DNA from: Veillonellales bacterium
GTDB lineage: Bacteria > Bacillota > Negativicutes > Veillonellales > Dialisteraceae
Direction: 5' to 3'
Assembly: GCA_944390485.1 (NCBI GenBank)
Contig: CALXPQ010000001.1
Span: forward strand, 62,001 to 126,000
DNA length: 64,000 bases
Below the pieces are notes generated by a model. It ran no database searches. It was not told the DNA's origin and was given only the letters and a program-made list of their open reading frames with translations. Both the position numbers and the translations under genes were made by a program. Of this stretch, positions 35,711-52,998 are shown one piece after another (the stretch's first letter is position 1; every line of letters starts with the position of its first letter).

Positions 35711-38494
35711 ATGATGACAGATACCGAACAGCGCGCCGCCGCGAAAAAATTTGCCGCCTACTGGAAAGGGAAGGGCTATGAGAAAGGACAGAGCCAGCCC
35801 TTCTGGCTGTCTCTCCTTCGGGACGTGTACGGCGTAGCGGAACCCGAAGCGTACATCGAATTTGAAGACAAGGTCATGCTCGACCACACGAGCTTCATCG
35901 ACGGCATGATCCCCGCCACGCACGTCCTCATCGAGCAGAAAGAGCTCGGCAAGAATCTGCGCAAGGCCATCCCGCAGTCCGACGGCTCGCTCCTGTCGCC
36001 GTACCAGCAGGCCCTGCGCTACTCGGCGAACCTGCCCTACTCGAAGCGGCCCCGGTACATCGTGACGTGCAACTTCTCCTCCTTCCTCGTGTACGACATG
36101 GAGCATCCTCAGTCCGAGCCGGAAGAGATCCTGCTGGAAAATCTGCCGAAGGAATATTACCGGCTGAATTTCCTCGTGGATAGCGGGGACGACCACCTGA
36201 AAAAAGAGCTGGAAGTGTCCGTCGCCGCTGGCGACCTCGTGGGCCGCCTCTACGACGCACTCCTCAAAAAATATATCGACCCCGAAAAGGAAGAGACGCT
36301 GAAAAGCCTGAACGTGCTCTGCGTGCGCCTCGTCTTCTGCCTCTACGCGGAGGACGCGGGCATCTTCGGCGGGCGCGCCATGTTCCACGACTACCTCGAA
36401 GGCTTCCGCCCGGAAAACATGCGCACCGCCCTCATCGACCTCTTCCAGATGCTCGACACGAAAGAAGAAGACCGCGACCCCTACGAGAAAGAAGAGCTCC
36501 TCGCCTTTCCCTACGTGAACGGCGGCCTCTTCTCCGATGAGCACATCACCATCCCGCGTCTCGACGACGACATCCGCACCCTCCTCCTGGACGAATGCAG
36601 CGAAGGCTTCGACTGGAGCGAGATCAGCCCCACCATCTTCGGGGCCGTCTTCGAGAGCACCCTGAACCCGGAGACGCGCCGCCACGGCGGGATGCATTAC
36701 ACCTCCATCGAGAACATCCACAAAGTCATCGACCCGCTCTTCCTGACAGATCTGAAAAAGGAACTGGACCGCATCCTCCGGGAGCCGGCGAAGCGCACCC
36801 GCCACGCGCATCTCCGGGCGTATCAGGAAAAGCTGGCGGGCCTCCGCTTCCTCGACCCGGCGTGCGGCTCCGGGAATTTCCTCACCGAGACCTATCTTTC
36901 CCTCCGGCGGCTCGAGAACCGCGTCATCGATGAGCTCACCGGCGGGCAGATGGTGCTGGGCGAGCTGGCCAATCCCATCCGCGTCTCCATCAGCCAGTTT
37001 TACGGCATCGAGATCAACGACTTCGCCGTCACCGTCGCGAAGACCGCCCTCTGGATCGCCGAGAGCCAGATGATGAAAGAGACGGAAGCCATCGTTCACA
37101 TGGAGCTCGACTTCCTGCCCCTCAAGACGAATGCCTACATCCACGAAGGGAACGCTCTCCGCATAGACTGGGAGACCGTTGTCCCGACAGGGGAGCTTTC
37201 CTACATCATGGGTAATCCGCCATTCGTTGGCGGCATGTACATGAGTACTGAACAGAAAAAAGAAATTCGTGAATTATTTCCAAAAGTAAAAGGAGCAGGG
37301 GAATTTGATTATGTTACGGGGTGGTATAAAAAGGCTGTGGAATTTGCAGCGCCATTACAGGTAAAATGTGCTTTTGTATCAACAAACAGTATTTGTCAGG
37401 GAAGTCATGTAATTACTTTCTGGAAATATTTAATGACAACTTTTCCCATTCATATTGATTTTGCTTATGATACTTTTATCTGGGAAAGTGAATCAAAAAG
37501 CAAAGCAAGTGTCTATTGTGTGATTGTGGGATTTTCAGGACCTTTTAGTAAGGAAAATGAAAAACTTTTATTTGCAGATAATGGGAAGTACAAAAAATGC
37601 ATTCATATTAGTCCGTATTTGATGGATACACCGACAGTTTTTATTGATTCAAGAAGCACTCCATTATGTGATGTTCCTAAAATGCGATTTGGTAGCATGC
37701 CAAGAGATGGAGGGGGATTTATTCTTTCGGAGTCAGAAAAAGCTGAATTGATAGAAAAGGAACCGATAGCGGAGAAATGGATTCATTTATATCTTGGCGG
37801 GAATGAATTTATTAAAGGGAAAAAACGTTATTGTTTATGGTTAGTGAATGCGAATCCAGCAGAAATTAATAAATGTCCAAGTGTAAAAAAACGGATTGAA
37901 CAGGTAAGGGATATGCGTTTGGCATCTAAAGCGGCGGCCACTCGCAAATTTGCGGAAACACCGACGTTATTTTGCCAGATTGCTCAGCCGGATTGTGATT
38001 ATTTAATGGTACCGGAAACATCTTCGGAACGAAGACGGTATATCCCTATGGGATTTATGAGTAAGGATGTAATCGCAAGCAATGCGGCATATTTGATTCC
38101 TGGGGTAAATAAATTTCATTTTGGTGTTTTAACATCCAATGTGCATATGGCATGGATGCGCGTTGTCGCGGGACGGCTGAAAAGCGATTACCGGTATTCG
38201 AAGGATATCGTGTACAACAATTTCCCCTGGCCGGAGCCGGACGAGGCGCACCGCGCCGCCATCGAGCGGACCGCGCAGGGCATACTCGACGCGCGGGCGC
38301 GCTATCCCGACGCGAGCCTTGCTGACCTCTACGACGAGCTCACCATGCCGCCGGACCTGCGCCGCGCCCATCAGGAAAACGACAAGGCCGTCATGACCGC
38401 CTACGGGTGGAACTGGCGGGGCATGACCGAATCCGACTGCGTGGCCGAGCTCATGAAACTCTATCAGAAGCTCGCCGCCGCGGCGGACCGGTGA
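35711..38494 (+). CDS. MmeI-like single-chain restriction-modification enzyme (type IIL/IIG)
   Basis: 927 residues combining nuclease and methyltransferase. The N-terminal PD-(D/E)xK site is Asp64-x10-Glu75-Gln-Lys77 (in DGMIPATHVLIEQK), as in MmeI. A helical connector follows, then the gamma-class adenine methyltransferase: SAM motif LDPACGSGNFL at about 381 and catalytic NPPF at about 502. The target recognition region follows. Bases roughly 37190-38155 (residues about 494-815) are strikingly AT-rich, while both ends are GC-rich, so this part has been exchanged or acquired. The C-terminus is intact (NNFPWPEPDEAHRAAIE). Such enzymes methylate one strand and cut outside the site. The 8-bp repeat lies just upstream. 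Confidence 0.9.
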   Translation: MMTDTEQRAAAKKFAAYWKGKGYEKGQSQPFWLSLLRDVYGVAEPEAYIEFEDKVMLDHTSFIDGMIPATHVLIEQKELGKNLRKAIPQSDGSLLSPYQQALRYSANLPYSKRPRYIVTCNFSSFLVYDMEHPQSEPEEILLENLPKEYYRLNFLVDSGDDHLKKELEVSVAAGDLVGRLYDALLKKYIDPEKEETLKSLNVLCVRLVFCLYAEDAGIFGGRAMFHDYLEGFRPENMRTALIDLFQMLDTKEEDRDPYEKEELLAFPYVNGGLFSDEHITIPRLDDDIRTLLLDECSEGFDWSEISPTIFGAVFESTLNPETRRHGGMHYTSIENIHKVIDPLFLTDLKKELDRILREPAKRTRHAHLRAYQEKLAGLRFLDPACGSGNFLTETYLSLRRLENRVIDELTGGQMVLGELANPIRVSISQFYGIEINDFAVTVAKTALWIAESQMMKETEAIVHMELDFLPLKTNAYIHEGNALRIDWETVVPTGELSYIMGNPPFVGGMYMSTEQKKEIRELFPKVKGAGEFDYVTGWYKKAVEFAAPLQVKCAFVSTNSICQGSHVITFWKYLMTTFPIHIDFAYDTFIWESESKSKASVYCVIVGFSGPFSKENEKLLFADNGKYKKCIHISPYLMDTPTVFIDSRSTPLCDVPKMRFGSMPRDGGGFILSESEKAELIEKEPIAEKWIHLYLGGNEFIKGKKRYCLWLVNANPAEINKCPSVKKRIEQVRDMRLASKAAATRKFAETPTLFCQIAQPDCDYLMVPETSSERRRYIPMGFMSKDVIASNAAYLIPGVNKFHFGVLTSNVHMAWMRVVAGRLKSDYRYSKDIVYNNFPWPEPDEAHRAAIERTAQGILDARARYPDASLADLYDELTMPPDLRRAHQENDKAVMTAYGWNWRGMTESDCVAELMKLYQKLAAAADR

Positions 38495-38530
38495 GTTTTC
38501 CACAGCGTGGAAGGAAAGGAGGGGATGACC

Positions 38531-40060
38531 ATGGACAGGAAAGCCGTTCATGACTTTGCGGGACAGTTTCTGAGCGTCTATCGCGGGTCTTCGCCCGCGC
38601 TGCCGATTTCTTTTTATCTCAATGAAGCCTTCGGGGAGAGCTGCGAGCGGCTGGGCTTTGTCATGGATTGCGGCGAAGCGTTCATCCGGGCGTATTCGTC
38701 CCGCGCATTTTTCAAGGCGAAGGAGCTGGCGCTAAGAATCAACAGCATACACGATGCGGCGCTGCTCGGCTCGGCGATTTTTTCGAAATGGCGGTATCTC
38801 ACCCGCTGGTGCACCGATCCTTCCATGCAGGAGGAAGAAGAGGAGCGGTGGTTCATCCTCGCTTTTCTGCGTCTCGAGCAGCTCACGGCGGGACCGGAGG
38901 CACGTCCCTGTTTCCGCGGGCGGGTAAGAAAATTCTGCCTGACTTCGTCGGCGGGCGGCTTCCGGGCACGGACAGCCGGATACAAGGTCAGGGAACGGCT
39001 CACGGTGCACGAAGACGGCCGGGTGCGCCGCACGGAAATTTTCGAAGCGGAAGAACGCGGCGCGTATCGGAAAAAAAGAACAGAGTGGACGGTCTCGACA
39101 CGGCACAAATGGAAGCTGCTCTTCGCTGTGCTCACGCTCTTTGCACGGATTGACGCAGAGGAGAGGGGCTGGGGCGTGCTTGGGTTCGACTGCGGCAGAT
39201 GGAAAATCAAGCTCTGGAATCAGAATAGAGAGACGGTGGAGCACATCGGCTGCCTGTGGGCAGGGCTCGGCGCGGTGGATTTGTCCGAACTGGTGAGAGA
39301 GGCGCTCGGCCGTTCCGATTTGTGGGCCTTTGAGGAAAGAGGCAGGGAATGGGACCTGCGCCGTGTGGAGATGGTCTATTGCCCCGCGCAGGGCGAAGTG
39401 CCGGCGCCGTTCCGCAGGAACGCGCGGGACGGCATGGAACGGCTCACCGTAGACGGAGAGACCGATGCGATGACCTATGTCCGCTGTGCGGCCGGCGATA
39501 AACGGACCGTTACGCTGCGCGGAGGCGTGAAGGAGTGGCTGCGTCAGTGGGATGTGTACGCGCCGTTCCGGAAAAAGAACGGGACGCCGCCGGACACCGC
39601 GCCGGATGCCGTCCAGCCCGTGATCCTCGGAAACGCTTCACGGGCGGGCAGGCAGGGAACGTATCGGCTCACGGCGTATTACCGGGGCGCGCCGCAATCC
39701 GTATGGGAGGGACATTTCCAGGCAGACGAACTTCCGGAGGACTGGGAATCCTTTGCGGAAATGCTGTGCGAGGTCTTCGGCCGGGCTGTCTGCGGGCGTC
39801 TGCTCGACCCTGTGTGGTATACCTGGCGGCCGCGCCGGCCGGGGGAGTCCATCTACTGCCATGTGTCGTTCGAAGAGGGCGGGAAGCTGTACTGCTACCG
39901 CACGGAGGACGAGTCCATCCGGCCGGGTGACCGGGTCCTCGTGCCGGCGGGACCGGAGAACGAGACGAAGGCGGTCACGGTAGTCCGCGTGGAGTATGTG
40001 CGCCCGGAGGACGCGCCCTATCCGCCGGCGAAGACGAAGATCATCCTAGGGAAGGTCTGA
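38531..40060 (+). CDS. Unrecognised 509-aa protein downstream of the restriction enzyme
   Basis: Start ATG 38531 is chosen because AAGGAGGGG ends about seven bases before it; an ATG six bases earlier abuts that site. No known catalytic motif. The N-terminal half is helical and rich in aromatic and charged residues; a mid part reads RWKIKLWNQNRETVEHIGCLW. The C-terminal 75 residues (YCHVSFEEGGKLYCYRTED, RPGDRVLVPAGPENETKAV) form a small beta module I recall at the end of many hypothetical proteins in gut bacteria. It follows the restriction gene by 36 bases on the same strand, so an accessory role is possible but unproven. Followed by the serS leader. Confidence 0.6.
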   Translation: MDRKAVHDFAGQFLSVYRGSSPALPISFYLNEAFGESCERLGFVMDCGEAFIRAYSSRAFFKAKELALRINSIHDAALLGSAIFSKWRYLTRWCTDPSMQEEEEERWFILAFLRLEQLTAGPEARPCFRGRVRKFCLTSSAGGFRARTAGYKVRERLTVHEDGRVRRTEIFEAEERGAYRKKRTEWTVSTRHKWKLLFAVLTLFARIDAEERGWGVLGFDCGRWKIKLWNQNRETVEHIGCLWAGLGAVDLSELVREALGRSDLWAFEERGREWDLRRVEMVYCPAQGEVPAPFRRNARDGMERLTVDGETDAMTYVRCAAGDKRTVTLRGGVKEWLRQWDVYAPFRKKNGTPPDTAPDAVQPVILGNASRAGRQGTYRLTAYYRGAPQSVWEGHFQADELPEDWESFAEMLCEVFGRAVCGRLLDPVWYTWRPRRPGESIYCHVSFEEGGKLYCYRTEDESIRPGDRVLVPAGPENETKAVTVVRVEYVRPEDAPYPPAKTKIILGKV

Positions 40061-44955: not shown

Positions 44956-44989
44956 GAGCTCTGATGCTTCGCATCGGGGCTCTTTTTTT
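44956..44989 (+). terminator. Terminator after secF
   Basis: A two-part stem GAGC/GCTC and GATGC/GCATC with a TTC loop, followed by seven T. Confidence 0.85.
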
Positions 44990-45115
44990 CATGTGGACAG
45001 CGGGCCGCGGCCGTGCAATTTCCGGCGGGGCAGGTTACAATACAGGCAGGCAGAGGCGTCCGGGGCAGTCCGGAGCCGTGCCGGTGGGCCGGAGGCGGCC
45101 CGGAAAAGAGGAACC

Positions 45116-45934
45116 ATGAAAAAAATCGCATTTTACGGGAAGGGCGGCATCGGGAAATCGACCACCGCTTCCAATGTATCGGCGGCGCTCAGCCTGATGG
45201 GGAAGCGGGTGTGCCAGATCGGGTGCGACCCGAAGAACGATTCCACGCGGCTCCTTCTGGGGCATATCTGTCGGGAGACGGTGCTCGACAAGGTGCGCAC
45301 GTCGGAGCCGGAAGACATCCGGCCGGAGGATATCGTCCACACCGGATGGAACGGCATCACCTGCGTGGAGGCCGGCGGGCCGGAGCCGGGCGTGGGCTGC
45401 GCGGGCCGGGGCATCATCGTGGCGCTGCAGCTGCTGGACCGGATGAAGGCGCTCCCCGAGGCGGATCTCACGCTGTACGACGTGCTGGGCGATGTGGTGT
45501 GCGGCGGCTTCGCCATGCCGATCCGCGAGGGCTACGCCACGGACATCTACATCGTGTCGTCCGGCGAGCTCATGTCGCTCTACGCGGCGAACAACATCGC
45601 CAAAGGGGTGCGGCGTTTCGCCGCGCGGGGCAAAGTGCGCCTCGCCGGCCTCATCGGGAACAGCCGGAATACGCCCGGCGAGAAGGAGCTGCTCCTCGAA
45701 TTTGCGGAGATGCTCCACACGCAGCTCATCGCCTTCATCCCGCGGGACCGGATCGTGAATCTGGCGGAAAACAACCGGCAGACGGTGCTGCAGTATGCGC
45801 CGGAGTCCCCGCAGGCAGACGTGTACCGGCGCCTGGCGGAGGCCATCTGGGAGAATACGTCTCTCACGGTGCCCACGCCGGTCACGTTCGATGAACTGGA
45901 AGCGCTGGTGATGAAGTATGGCACTGAAAACTAA
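45116..45934 (+). CDS. NifH-like reductase (nitrogenase iron protein family)
   Basis: 272 residues. ATP-binding loop [13 protein letters not shown] at 8-20. The two cysteines that hold the shared [4Fe-4S] cluster of the homodimer are Cys95 (GVGCAGRG) and Cys129 ([13 protein letters not shown]). [13 protein letters not shown] is also conserved. It should pass electrons at low potential, with ATP use, to the two component-1-like proteins encoded next (17-base overlap with the first). No NifB, NifE/N, BchNB or cofactor synthesis gene is nearby, so true nitrogen fixation is unlikely; the substrate is unknown. A weak TACAAT box lies at 45036. Confidence 0.88.
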
Positions 45935-47210
45935 GTGGCTCCTCACGAAGAACCAGTCCGTGAGCTGCGTCATGCCCGGCGTGTACCGGGCGCTCGCCTT
46001 CTGCGAGGGCTGCGCGGTGGTTTTCCACAGCCCGAAAGGGTGCGCGCAGATCGCGTCCACCATGGACGCGGGGAGCCAGTTCCGCATGGTCGGCGAAGGG
46101 CGGAAAGAATGGCTGGACGGCGTGCCGCTGCTGTCGTCCCATCTGCGGGAGAAGGACTGCATCTTCGGCGGGACGGACCGGCTGCGGGACGTGCTCCGCT
46201 ACACGGCGGAGACGTATCATCCGGAATGCATCGCGGTGGCCGTTTCCTGTATGGCGGGCGTCATCGGGGACGATGTGGAAGCGGTGTGCGAAGACGCGGA
46301 AGCGGAGCTGGGCATCCCGATCCTGCTCTCGCCGGCGGCAGGCTTCCTCGGCGGAGGCTATGAGGACGGCTACCGCGCCATGATCGATCAGATCATCCGG
46401 CGCTTCTTCCGGCCGCAGGCGCACGTGCCGGGCCGGGTGCTCCTCCTCGGCGACCAGATGGGGCCGTGGGGGCAGTACGCGATGGAAGTGAAGGACATGC
46501 TCGGCTGGTTCGGGCTGGACGCGAAGTGGCAGTTCCCGGGCTATGTGCCGTTCCGGGAGTGGCCGGAGATCCCGTCGGCCTCGCTGGGGATCATCCTCGG
46601 CAGCGCGGGTCAGACGAACGGCGTGCTGGAAGACACCGCGGCAAAACTGGAAAAGGACTTCGGCATTTCTTTTCTGCCGCCGGTCTATCCCATCGGCTGG
46701 GAAAATACGAGGCGCTTCATCCATGCGCTGGCCGCGCATCTGGGGCGCGAAGCGGACGGGGAGGCGCTCCTCCGGAAGAAAGAAGAGGAGCTGGGCGCTT
46801 TCGTGCAGTCCGTGCTTCCCGTGACGGAGGGAAAGACGGCGGTCATCGGCATCGGCCGCGGGCCGCAGCATTACGACCCGGCGGACACGCTCCATTCCGT
46901 GGAGCGGCTCCATATGAACGTGAGCGCGGTCGTGCTGTATGACAATCTGTCCGGCGAAGACCGGCAGAAAATGACAGAACTTGTCCGGAAGAGCTGCGCC
47001 GCGCCGGTGCTCTCCGCCGACGATGGGCGGGAGGCCGTCCGGAGTGCGGACATCCTGCTCACGACGGACGAGCTGCTCGACCCGGGGACGAAGCAGCTCT
47101 TCATCCCTATGGTGGCGCTCATCGGAACGTCCGGGGAGATCGCCATGCTCCGCGGCATCTACCGGCTGCTCTGCCGGTACGGGAACAAAGGAGGGATCGC
47201 CTATGTCTGA
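45918..47210 (+). CDS. Nitrogenase component 1-like protein, subunit A
   Basis: 430 residues of the oxidoreductase/nitrogenase component 1 family. The N-terminal cysteines Cys17, Cys29, Cys32 and Cys42 ([20 protein letters not shown], then SPKGCAQ) and Cys111 ([13 protein letters not shown]) are candidates for an interface Fe-S cluster. The protein lacks the obvious C-terminal cofactor-binding segment of NifD. It overlaps the NifH-like gene and the next gene, giving a compact three-gene unit. It may form a heterodimer with the protein at 47203. Confidence 0.8.
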
Positions 47211-48483
47211 CAGGGAATGGGAAGCGGCGTGCCATCACACGGACACGTGCGCGCTGACCGGCTCGGCGGCCTTTTTCATGGGCATCCCGAAGAGCCACGT
47301 CCTCGTGAACGGGCCGCTGTGGTGCTATTATTATGCGCTGCGCTATCTGGAAAACGCGGCGGGGTATCTCTCGTCGCACATGACCTGCACGCAGCCTTCG
47401 GGGAAAGCGGTCGTATACGGCACGGAGGAGGATTTGCTCCGCGGGTTCGACAACATCCGCCGCATGGACGCGCCGGAGCGGGTCTTCGTGGAGAACAACT
47501 GCAGCATCAGCATGATCGGCGACGACATCGCGGGCATCGCGGAAGCGGCAGATCTGCCGTGGCCGGTGTACGCCATGGACAGCGGCGGCGTGCGCGGCGG
47601 CTTCGCCGGCGGCTACGCCCGGGGCCTGCTCCGCGTGGAAGCGGAGATGAAGCCGCAGGAGCGGATGCCCGGCACGGTGAATGTGCTCGGCCTCACGCCG
47701 TTCCTGCTGAAAGGGCGGCAGGACGCGGACGAGATCCGGCGGCTCCTCGCGGCCTGCGGCATCCGGGTGCTCTCCATGCCCGGCGCCGGCAGTCCGTGGG
47801 AGGAGATCCTCCGCGCACCGGCGGCGTCGCTCAATCTGGTGGTGCGGGACGAGCTGGCGCTCGACGCGGCGCGGCAGATGGAGAAGGATTTCGGCGTGCC
47901 GTACCTCTCTGCGGGCCTGCCGTACGGCATGCAGGGCACGGAGCGGTGGCTGCGCCGCATCGCGGATGCCCTCGGCGGCGCAGACCTCGCGGCGGTCTCC
48001 GGAGAGATCCGTGAACGGAACACGCACATGCGCCACATCGCCATGGATCTGGAATCGCTGTGGGGACCGCTGTGGTTCGACCGCATCCTCGTGGCGGCGC
48101 TCCCGTCGGAGGCGGCGGGCCTCGCGGAAGCGGTGCGCGGCGAATGGGCGGACACGGAGCAGCTCACGGTGCACCTGCAGCACCCGTCCGGGACGCCCAT
48201 TCCCGCGGCGGATGCGGTGATGACCTGCGGGCAGGACGACGCGGCGATCGGCGCGTATTACCATTCGTGGGCGGGCGGGCTCCTCCTCGGGAGCGCGCAC
48301 GAAGAGTCGCGCCTCCTGCGGCTGGGAAAGCCGTTCACGCCGTGCCTCATCGCCTATCCCACAACGGACCGGCTCTTCCTGACGGACCTGCCGTTCTGCG
48401 GCATCCGCGGCGCGGAGTACCTGTACGAGCGGCTGTGGAATGCGAAACTGTCCGAACAGGTGCGGGCGTACAAACATCAATGA
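47203..48483 (+). CDS. Nitrogenase component 1-like protein, subunit B
   Basis: 426 residues from ATG 47203, overlapping the previous stop by eight bases, with AGGAGG upstream. Cysteines Cys10, Cys16, Cys41, Cys62 and Cys100 (TDTCALTGSAAFFMGI, VNGPLWCYYYA, FVENNCSISMIGDD) are placed like those of the NifK/NifE type fold. No FeMo-cofactor ligand pattern could be identified. It forms the third gene of the set and ends at a terminator. Confidence 0.8.
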   Translation: MSDREWEAACHHTDTCALTGSAAFFMGIPKSHVLVNGPLWCYYYALRYLENAAGYLSSHMTCTQPSGKAVVYGTEEDLLRGFDNIRRMDAPERVFVENNCSISMIGDDIAGIAEAADLPWPVYAMDSGGVRGGFAGGYARGLLRVEAEMKPQERMPGTVNVLGLTPFLLKGRQDADEIRRLLAACGIRVLSMPGAGSPWEEILRAPAASLNLVVRDELALDAARQMEKDFGVPYLSAGLPYGMQGTERWLRRIADALGGADLAAVSGEIRERNTHMRHIAMDLESLWGPLWFDRILVAALPSEAAGLAEAVRGEWADTEQLTVHLQHPSGTPIPAADAVMTCGQDDAAIGAYYHSWAGGLLLGSAHEESRLLRLGKPFTPCLIAYPTTDRLFLTDLPFCGIRGAEYLYERLWNAKLSEQVRAYKHQ

Positions 48484-48492
48484 AGCATGCGG

Positions 48493-48519
48493 AGCGCGTC
48501 CTGCGGGGCGCGCTTTTTG
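48493..48519 (+). terminator. Terminator after the nitrogenase-like genes
   Basis: AGCGCG/CGCGCT stem with a ten-base loop and five T. Confidence 0.75.
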
Positions 48520-50373: not shown

Positions 50374-50603
50374 AATAAATGCAGTGACAGAGACATGACG
50401 GCAGGAGACAGACCGGCAGAGAGTCCATGGCTGGTGAAAATGGACGGGATGCCCTGTGCGCTACCCCTCTGGAGCAGGAGCGCGGAAAGTCAGTATGCGC
50501 TTCCGGTTGGCCGCGTTACCGGCTGAAGAGTGATCCTGCGGGATCAATTTGGGTGGAACCACGGAAGACAGCTTTCGTCCCTTGCGGACGGGAGCTTTTT
50601 TAT
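50374..50603 (+). promoter_or_regulatory. T-box leader, threonine specific, upstream of thrS
   Basis: T-box core TGGGTGGAACCACGG at 50550-50564. The terminator is AGCTTTCGTCC/GGACGGGAGCT with six T (50570-50602). AGAGAG and the hairpin TCCAT/ATGGA with GGTG in the loop mark stem I. ACC at 50462-50464 is the likely specifier codon for threonine, in register with the proposed specifiers of the other two leaders. Confidence 0.9.
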
Positions 50604-50656: not shown

Positions 50657-52564
50657 ATGATCAAAATTTTTCTGAAAGACGGAAAAGAAAAAGACTTTGA
50701 AAGCGCCGTGCCGCTGTTCGAAGCCGCGAAAGCCATTTCCAACAGCCTCGGCCGGGATGCGGTCGCCGCCGGCGTGGACGGAGAGCTGACCGATCTCCGC
50801 GAACCGATCAGGGACGGCTCGCATGTGGAATTCTACACGAAGGAAGACAAGGAAGGCCTCTTCACGCTGCGCCATACCTGCTCCCACATCCTGGCGCAGG
50901 CGCTCCAGCACCTCTATCCGGGCATCAAATTCGCCATCGGCCCGGCCATTGACACCGGCTTCTACTATGACGTGGACTGCGACCACGTATTCAGCCAGGA
51001 CGACTTCGCCGCCATCGAAGCGGAAATGGCGAAGATCATCAAGGAAAATCTCCCGCTGGAAAAAAAGATCCTCTCCCGGGAAGAAGCCATCGCTTATTTC
51101 AAGGCGCAGAACCAGGACTACAAGGTCATGCTCATCGAAGACCTGCCGGAGGACGCGGTGATCTCCCTCTATACGCAGGGCGACTTCACCGATCTCTGCG
51201 CGGGCCCGCACGTCCGCTCCACCGGCAAGGTGAAAGCCTTCAAGCTGATGACCGTGGCCGGCGCATACTGGAGAGGCGACGAGCACAACAAGATGCTCCA
51301 GCGCATCTACGGCACCGCGTTCTACACGAAGGAAGATCTGGATCATTTCCTCTTCGTCCGCGCGGAAGCGGAGAAGCGCGACCACCGCAAGCTGGGCCGG
51401 CAGCTCGACCTCTTCAGCTTCCATGAAGAAGGCCCGGGCTTCCCGTTCTTCCACCCGAAGGGCATGGTCCTCCGGAACCTCCTCATGGACTATGAACGGG
51501 AACTCTTCAAGAAATACGATTATGAAGAGATCATGACCCCGATCATCCTGTCGAAGAAGCTCTGGATCCAGTCCGGCCACTGGGACCACTACCGTGAAAA
51601 CATGTACTTCACCCAGATCGACGGCGAAGATTACGCGGTGAAGCCGATGAACTGCCCCGGCGGCATCCTCTACTTCAAGACGAAGCAGAGAAGCTACAAG
51701 GAACTGCCGAAGCGCGTGGGCGAATTCGGCCTCGTACACCGCCACGAGCTGCACGGCGCGCTGCACGGCCTCTTCCGCGTGCGCTGCTTCACGCAGGACG
51801 ACGCGCACATCTTCATGACGCCGGACCAGATGGAGAAGGAAGTCATCGGCACGCTCCATATGTATCAGGACCTGTACAGCGTCTTCGGCCTCCAGTACCA
51901 TGTGGAACTCTCCACTCGTCCGGAAAACTCCATGGGCTCCGATGAGCTGTGGGAAATCTCCACGAACGCGCTCCGCCACGCCATCGAACAGGCGGGCGTG
52001 CCCTACGTCATCAATGAAGGGGACGGCGCGTTCTACGGGCCGAAGCTGGACTTCCACATCGAAGACTCCCTCGGACGCACCTGGCAGTGCGGCACCATCC
52101 AGATGGATATGCAGCTGCCGGAACGGTTCGACGTGAACTACATTGGCGAGGACGGCGAGAAGCACCGCGCCGTCATGATCCACCGCGCGGGCTACGGCAG
52201 CCTGGAACGCTTCCTGGGCATCCTCATCGAACACTTCGCCGGCGCATTCCCCACCTGGTTCGCTCCGGTGCAGGTGAAGGTCATCCCCGTGGCGCAGTCC
52301 CACATGGAATACGCGAAGGATGTGGCCGACATGCTGGCGGAATCCAATATCCGCGTGGAGCTGGAAGAAGCGAACGAGACGCTGGGCTACAAGATCCGCA
52401 AGGCGCAGACGGAAAAGGTGCCGTACATGCTCATCATCGGCGACAAGGAAATCAAGAGCCGCACCGTCTCCGTCCGCACGAGAAGCGGCGGCGACGAAGG
52501 CAGCCAGATGCTGCCGGTCTTCATCGCACAGCTCATTCGTGAAATCAAAGAACGGAGCCTGTGA
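50657..52564 (+). CDS. thrS: Threonine-tRNA ligase
   Basis: 635 residues from ATG 50657 (AAAGGAAG upstream), usual length. Parts: N-terminal TGS domain (KIFLKDGKEKDFES), editing domain with HTCSHILAQALQ and the DLCAGPHV motif, catalytic core with MNCPGGILYFK and RVRCFTQDDAHIF, and the C-terminal anticodon domain. The editing histidines and cysteine are present. Its stop overlaps the hutP-like gene. Confidence 0.97.
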   Translation: MIKIFLKDGKEKDFESAVPLFEAAKAISNSLGRDAVAAGVDGELTDLREPIRDGSHVEFYTKEDKEGLFTLRHTCSHILAQALQHLYPGIKFAIGPAIDTGFYYDVDCDHVFSQDDFAAIEAEMAKIIKENLPLEKKILSREEAIAYFKAQNQDYKVMLIEDLPEDAVISLYTQGDFTDLCAGPHVRSTGKVKAFKLMTVAGAYWRGDEHNKMLQRIYGTAFYTKEDLDHFLFVRAEAEKRDHRKLGRQLDLFSFHEEGPGFPFFHPKGMVLRNLLMDYERELFKKYDYEEIMTPIILSKKLWIQSGHWDHYRENMYFTQIDGEDYAVKPMNCPGGILYFKTKQRSYKELPKRVGEFGLVHRHELHGALHGLFRVRCFTQDDAHIFMTPDQMEKEVIGTLHMYQDLYSVFGLQYHVELSTRPENSMGSDELWEISTNALRHAIEQAGVPYVINEGDGAFYGPKLDFHIEDSLGRTWQCGTIQMDMQLPERFDVNYIGEDGEKHRAVMIHRAGYGSLERFLGILIEHFAGAFPTWFAPVQVKVIPVAQSHMEYAKDVADMLAESNIRVELEEANETLGYKIRKAQTEKVPYMLIIGDKEIKSRTVSVRTRSGGDEGSQMLPVFIAQLIREIKERSL

Positions 52565-52998
52565 TGGAACGGGAACTGCAGAGCGCCGACGTGGGGCGCG
52601 CCGCGCTCCGCATGGCGCTCTCCGAGACGCGGGCCGATGAGAACGTGCTCCGCGGGCAGCTCGCGCAGAACGGCATCCGCGCGGTGGCCGTGAATTTCGG
52701 CGGCCGCTTCCCGGATATCCTGCCGAAGATCTTCGAGTCGGCCATCGTGGCGGCGCAGCGGCAGCACGTGGTCTCCGACACCCACGTGGGCGACGGAGCC
52801 GTGCTCGGCGCGGTGGAATCGGCCATCGAGCAGATCAAGCTGAAGGCGCTCGGCATGAACGTGGGCGGCAAGATCGGCATCGCCCGGTGGAACGAGCATC
52901 TCTGCGTGGCGGTGTACGTCGGCGTGGGCGTGCTCCGCTTCAACGAGGTGGCGGTGGGCATGGCGCACCGTGCCCTGCGGAACGATCTCACCGACTGA
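52564..52998 (+). CDS. hutP: HutP-family RNA-binding regulator
   Basis: 144 residues from ATG 52564, which overlaps the thrS stop (TGATG); GTG 52561 is possible. Family motifs: NGIRAVAVNFGGRF, ESAIVAAQRQHVV, THVGDGAVLGAVESAI, ALGMNVGGKIGIARWNEHL and FNEVAVGMAHRA, including the histidines that bind Mg2+ and L-histidine in Bacillus HutP. HutP opens an antiterminator in histidine-use operons there. No hut gene is near. Being coupled to thrS, it may instead regulate another RNA or respond to another amino acid; this is inference. Confidence 0.88.
   Translation: MERELQSADVGRAALRMALSETRADENVLRGQLAQNGIRAVAVNFGGRFPDILPKIFESAIVAAQRQHVVSDTHVGDGAVLGAVESAIEQIKLKALGMNVGGKIGIARWNEHLCVAVYVGVGVLRFNEVAVGMAHRALRNDLTD

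Follow-up and report, generated by a model that had tools for sequence, protein, structure and literature searches.

The reactions of only a few nitrogenase-like enzymes are known, and for several groups no reaction is known at all. The question raised by the 64,000-nucleotide stretch of DNA from a Dialister-like gut bacterium of the Veillonellales analysed here (the window) is what the product of one such gene set, which we call nflHDK, reduces. The set comprises three genes:

45116..45934, + strand: nflH, a NifH-type ATP-dependent Fe-S reductase of 272 aa with the P-loop GKGGIGKST and the cluster cysteines Cys95 and Cys129.
45918..47210, + strand: nflD, a component-1 alpha-like subunit of 430 aa with P-cluster-type Cys17/42/111 and no Cys at the position of NifD Cys275.
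47203..48483, + strand: nflK, a component-1 beta-like subunit of 426 aa with P-cluster-type Cys16/41/100 and, by structure prediction, a fold nearest to that of the DPOR subunit BchB.

The original prediction of an overlapping, nitrogenase-like three-gene set was confirmed by the reading frames (nflH and nflD share 17 bp, nflD and nflK 8 bp), by Pfam (Fer4_NifH for NflH at 369 bits; Oxidored_nitro for NflD and NflK at 176 and 180 bits) and by the cluster ligands; a NifH-type ATPase with two cluster cysteines and PF00148 subunits place the set in the nitrogenase superfamily. Comparison with the same-genus relative, the nearest available, gave dN/dS values of 0.06 (H), 0.17 (D) and 0.18 (K), indicating that the genes are real and maintained under purifying selection.

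The genes are flanked by secDF upstream and by an ABC exporter and thrS downstream, and both species seen of the window's genus carry a stand-alone nfl operon with secDF on one side and the ABC exporter on the other. The claim that no nifB/E/N, bch or F430 genes lie nearby holds for the neighbours scanned, that is, secDF, the ABC exporter and thrS. Three putative transcription signals surround nflHDK:

44956..44989, + strand: terminator-like hairpin with a T-run in the gap between secF and nflH, read from the sequence, with a matching hairpin in the same-genus relative.
45030..45047, + strand: promoter-like block GCAGGTTACAATACAGG, conserved in the alignment with the same-genus relative and a candidate for nflHDK's own promoter.
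48493..48518, + strand: terminator-like hairpin with a T-run past nflK, read from the sequence.

The hairpin after secF and the conserved promoter-like block suggest that nflHDK is a separate transcription unit. Further along the window, a T-box leader (50375-50585), the sole RNA family match near this nfl copy, immediately precedes thrS, and a gene for a HutP-domain protein (52561-52998) lies immediately 3' of thrS. On the other side, in a region of lower G+C (0.51) that looks acquired (35711-40060), a 517-aa ORF without Pfam match follows an MmeI-type restriction-methylase gene (927 aa).

That nflHDK encodes a true nitrogenase or a cofactor maturase has virtually no probability. NflH does come near the NCBIfam nifH cut-off (385 versus 394 bits), but NflD and NflK score far under the cut-offs for NifD, NifK, NifE and NifN, as they do for BchN/B/Z and CfbD. 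Moreover, in the window organism's genome, which is 94% complete, we found no match to NifB, no second strong NifH match and no second DK pair, a K probe matching only K and D themselves. In nitrogenase, NifD Cys275 holds the active-site cofactor, and its equivalent in MarD is Cys270. This position is Cys in none of 64 clade rows and Gly in 52 of them, an absence that also characterizes BchN and BchY; MarD C270 aligns to NflD T233. N2-fixing nitrogenases (Nif/Vnf/Anf), for which the cofactor ligands alpha-Cys275/His442 together with NifB and NifEN served as the criterion, were rejected on the Gly or Asn found at the Cys275 equivalent in the clade and on the lack of NifB and of a second DK pair. 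Chlorophyll and F430 synthesis were discarded together with diazotrophy on cut-offs, the missing anchor cysteine and the lack of NifB: the NCBIfam scores fell short for DPOR (BchL 225 versus 345, BchN 42 versus 420, BchB 69 versus 490), for COR (BchX 184 versus 331, BchZ 36 versus 529) and for CfbC (NflH 363.7 versus 402) and CfbD (NflD 50 versus 268), and CfbCD was additionally set aside because a K gene is present.

The remaining ligands are well conserved. NflH C95 and C129 are invariant in an alignment of seven sequences; NflD C17/C42/C111, which align with NifD Cys62/88/154, are conserved as Cys in all 64 rows; and of the NflK cysteines at positions 16, 41 and 100, which align with the P-cluster ligands of NifK, the first two are Cys in all 63 rows and the third in 57. 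This pattern, from which cluster identity is read here, would predict one [4Fe-4S] cluster in H and a P-cluster-type cluster in DK, with no nitrogenase cofactor expected. The six rows with Ser at K Cys100 are exactly the second Selenomonas/Centipeda copies (L083, L084, L086, L089, L092 and L094), which are second nflDK copies without adjacent nflH: a diverged paralogue, perhaps with a different cluster.

To place the subunits, we used only Nif, Vnf, Bch and Mar-type references, drawn from a plasmid collection, which itself contained five records at about 25% identity to D and no close relative. The D rows formed one clade (SH-aLRT 93) and so did the K rows (100), both outside all of these references, with 15-24% sequence identity to any full-length reference; the closest sequences to the window D and K outside the genus were Dialister and Succiniclasticum copies. 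AlphaFold models support a component-1 fold (mean pLDDT 87 for D and 91 for K). The K model matched BchB first (Z 40.5, rmsd 2.7, 406 aligned residues), ahead of MarK (37.8) and nitrogenase beta chains (about 33-36), a modest preference for BchB over MarK, while for the D model Mar, Bch and Nif were nearly tied at Z 22-25 and the families did not separate. The initial description of an unassigned nitrogenase-like reductase is thus upheld: D and K lie outside the Nif, Vnf, Bch and Mar-type references, none of whose proven-reaction clades takes them in, and the cysteines at the expected component-1 interface align with the P-cluster ligands of NifD and NifK with none lost. G028, a relative from the same order, has sequences (L033, L035) that group with NifD/NifE/NifK and VnfD, beside other nitrogenase-like sets, and further relatives have paired, very divergent nitrogenase-like sets with ORFs of 764-805 aa between them (L034, L036, L037) that lie far from the window clade.

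MarD (9fmg/9d9u) is the best solved-structure sequence match of D and also its top fold, tied with BchB, and this would be compatible with a Mar/Isr-type reductase that breaks C-S bonds in sulfur compounds. Yet we consider such an activity very improbable, since the MarD Cys270 equivalent is found in 0/64 rows, the window genome has no NifB match, the tree sets nfl apart from the Mar-type sequences and no sulfur-assimilation family recurs around the clade loci among the first 25 families; D, unlike Isr, also retains three P-cluster cysteines (PMC11423573). MarHDK was rejected on the missing Cys270 equivalent and the lack of a NifB match, and IsrHDK on the presence of three of three P-cluster cysteines in 64/64 rows and of secF, rather than IsrB, upstream of nflH.

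A scan that covered about 85,000 genomes and relied on short conserved patterns, so that absence elsewhere is not proof, returned 63 nfl loci, nearly all from Negativicutes, the others from Pelotomaculum and from a MAG with the label Acholeplasmataceae. Neighbours were sought within stretches of about 20 kb and labelled by BLAST to seeds whose identity came from Pfam and NCBIfam; for stand-alone loci, the genome-wide check covered CobN alone. Among the 44 loci with more than 14 kb of flank, CobN, FecCD and a periplasmic binding protein each occurred at 27, a TonB receptor and ChlD at 21, ChlI and CbiZ at 18 and a radical SAM protein at 14, and 72 further neighbouring ORFs included 11 CbiK and four corrinoid adenosyltransferases. 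Some of these genes sit very close: the adenosyltransferase gene of Pelotomaculum ends 36 nt before nflH, and CbiK lies just 5' of nflH in Schwartzia. The binding protein scored in one operon fitted none of the haem, B12 and siderophore models well.

CobN was found elsewhere in 18 of the 22 tested genomes whose nfl locus has no adjacent CobN; the four exceptions are the window genus, the genome with locus L049, Pelosinus propionicus and Veillonella ratti. As the last two keep nfl beside transporters and CbiZ, CobN is not required, and corrinoid handling remains. In a survey of 60 relatives and the window's own genome, nine genomes held the nfl clade: CbiZ was present in all nine versus 37/60 counted (one-sided p 0.008) and CobN in seven of nine versus 23/60 counted (p 0.012), in a sample that is not phylogenetically independent, and CbiD occurred in eight of nine, the exception being a genome 75% complete. 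CobN cassettes were also present in 16/51 clade-negative relatives; because they occur without nfl, we regard nfl as accessory.

Several loci have further peculiarities. At L041, L047, L049, L050, L052, L059 and L075, nflDK stands without a NifH motif in the stretch, and close relatives have nflH directly upstream. A TTRAGA-N5-TCTTAA-like palindrome, a possible operator of some regulator, lies within 100 nt 5' of nflH near the promoter at L042, L044, L046, L048, L051 and L060, which are Succiniclasticum/Acidaminococcaceae loci plus one Dialister copy. In Sporomusa ovata (L065:12219-15011), genes for a NapH-type ferredoxin protein and for a double-cubane reductase and its ATPase activator come after nflHDK, the latter two being a second ATP-driven low-potential system.

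Regulatory RNAs point in the same direction as the gene company. Rfam (RF00174) identified cobalamin riboswitches in three of the seven loci first scanned, and a second model, built from ten Rfam-found switches and that of L030, found 33 among 78 sources. At seven independent loci, 74-190 nt separate the end of a same-strand upstream cobalamin riboswitch from nflH: Phascolarctobacterium faecium (L053), Anaerospora (L063), Acidaminococcaceae (L064), Sporomusa ovata (L065), Negativicutes (L070), Veillonellaceae (L030/L078, one genome counted once) and L100. A hairpin with a U-run sits between switch and nflH at all four loci checked (L053, L063, L065 and L070), and this layout is that of a putative B12-repressed transcription switch. 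With a riboswitch directly upstream and a terminator, nfl falls, at the level of the clade, within the B12 regulon, whereas the window copy falls outside it, no cobalamin riboswitch being found near its nflH; nor did we find one at the Dialister and Succiniclasticum copies. In the open-access literature we found no report that connects cobalamin riboswitches or CobN salvage to nitrogenase-like genes.

A B12 riboswitch directly before its genes gives an orphan clade a concrete substrate class. On the basis that relatives of nflHDK lie among B12 genes, some of them behind a B12-sensing switch, we hold that the clade very probably belongs to B12/corrinoid metabolism and that its substrate is most likely not nitrogen but a B12-type, cobalt-containing ring. 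The original prediction had named corrinoid limitation only as one condition under which to check expression; corrinoid metabolism is now the leading assignment of the clade. Riboswitch repression alone would also fit a B12-independent stand-in, in which NflHDK takes the place of some B12-dependent enzyme and would for that reason be under B12 repression, as metE-type genes are, but this has little probability because nfl keeps company with genes that handle corrinoids (import, chelation, salvage, adenosylation) rather than with a B12-dependent pathway that it could replace.

Haem use is the chief competing reading for the clade: TonB and FecCD would import haem for anaerobic acquisition of porphyrin iron, a CobN-family de-chelatase of the HmuS type would act on it and NflHDK would reduce haem or porphyrin. 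HmuS is indeed a CobN-family de-chelatase of gut commensals (PMC12583661), the DPOR family reduces porphyrin-type rings, and the L063 TonB receptor gives a slightly better score against the haem model (120.5 bits) than against that for B12 (108.6 bits), although haem, B12 and siderophore models are about equal there and all below cut-off. Against this, cobalamin riboswitches precede nflH; the neighbouring genes include those for CbiK, CbiZ and corrinoid adenosyltransferase; the CobN scored passes the NCBIfam cobaltochelatase cut-off (971.5 versus 822); and V. ratti and P. propionicus keep nfl, transporters and CbiZ without any CobN. We therefore judge haem use rather improbable.

From the gene company of nfl a pathway can be read, but no particular reaction. 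Co(I), a state that is difficult to attain, is required for adenosylation, and superfamily members of known reaction that lack the anchor cysteine mostly reduce tetrapyrroles (DPOR, COR, CfbCD), Isr being the exception. Taken together with the company of a salvage cassette, these considerations lead us to propose that NflHDK is an ATP-dependent corrinoid or cobalt-tetrapyrrole reductase made when B12 is short, to which we assign a probability of roughly 60%; that the substrate is a corrinoid or cobalt-tetrapyrrole is probable to the same degree. An NflH dimer with one [4Fe-4S] cluster would pass electrons to an NflDK heterotetramer, where they would travel via the P-cluster-type cluster to a substrate held at the site of nitrogenase's cofactor, and the nfl system would be part of the Negativicutes cobalamin regulon for corrinoid uptake and salvage under B12 shortage. 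The likeliest single step would be the conversion, at very low potential, of a Co(II)-corrinoid to Co(I) before adenosylation, coupled to nucleotide hydrolysis, itself a doubtful choice and only slightly ahead of reduction of the ring itself (corrin or cobalt-sirohydrochlorin) by analogy with DPOR and CfbCD, which is nearly as likely. Tentatively, and at somewhat less than even odds, NflHDK may be dedicated to cobalt-tetrapyrroles: a corrinoid reductase driven by ATP and belonging to the B12 regulon, which represents a further reaction class of the nitrogenase superfamily and serves an ultra-low-potential step in anaerobic B12 salvage, its product possibly being a corrinoid in reduced form or an F430 analogue with cobalt.

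How far this role carries over to the window copy is less certain than the role of the clade. No B12 gene lies beside the copy, and CobN was found neither in the window genome nor anywhere else among the genomes seen of the window's genus (G000 and G001). Two tandem cobalamin riboswitches are present in the window genome on another contig. Since the copy has no riboswitch and its genome no CobN but CbiZ and CbiD, the role is assigned by orthology only. The set may have drifted to another role in this genus after loss of CobN and the riboswitch, as the stand-alone operon between secDF and the ABC exporter in both species seen and the lack of CobN in G000 and G001 would allow. We nevertheless consider drift unlikely, because purifying selection is strong and all ligands are kept, because the close kin are Dialister copies that sit with CobN (next door at the nfl loci of Dialister succinatiphilus and DNF00626) and because G000 and G001 retain CbiZ, CbiD and cobalamin riboswitches. 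If corrinoid reduction is true, it would tie nitrogenase-type chemistry to the B12 economy of gut, oral and rumen bacteria (Dialister, Phascolarctobacterium, Veillonella, Selenomonas and Succiniclasticum), whose corrinoid cross-feeding shapes communities, and would bear on tetrapyrrole reduction as a recurring use of the nitrogenase fold.

Among known systems, DPOR and COR (BchLNB, BchXYZ) share with nfl the H-D-K make-up, an alpha subunit without the cofactor-anchor cysteine and, in BchB, the fold nearest to K; in Sulfitobacter, a CobN-family gene between bchB and bchL echoes the association of nfl with CobN. They differ in forming separate clades at 16-19% identity, in the ligand set of BchB where NflK has three cysteines, and in that nfl has no chlorophyll genes and has corrinoid genes and a riboswitch instead. 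CfbCD acts on a metal-tetrapyrrole, reducing it at a step that adjoins a chelatase reaction, and its NifH-type partner resembles NflH (363.7 bits to CfbC, below the cut-off). However, CfbD is homodimeric (PMC12176620), whereas nfl D and K are two genes.

Mar and Isr are, like nfl, Group-IV-type three-gene reductases, and nfl has full P-cluster ligands as in Mar. MarD Cys270 anchors [Fe8S9C], with MarB, and the radical SAM gene isrB lies upstream of isrH. By contrast, nfl has neither the [Fe8S9C] anchor cysteine nor a NifB-like partner, and no sulfur genes were seen near it; NflD has three P-cluster cysteines, whereas IsrD retains one of three (PMC11423573). HmuS, which removes iron from haem, resembles the nfl loci in that a CobN-family protein lies beside TonB uptake in gut bacteria, but it belongs to an iron/haem system of Bacteroidota for which no nitrogenase-like partner or cobalamin riboswitch is mentioned (PMC12583661). 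Finally, corrinoid operon-2 of Dehalobacter restrictus, although no nitrogenase-like genes are mentioned in it, combines a cobalamin riboswitch, a Fep/Btu (FepBCD/BtuCD) transporter, CbiZ, CobN and Mg-chelatase subunits, and this cassette, which rises 346-fold on corrinoid starvation, was taken to serve corrinoid salvage (PMC4285132); the nfl genes would be an addition to a riboswitch, transporter, CbiZ, CobN and Mg-chelatase-subunit cassette of this kind.
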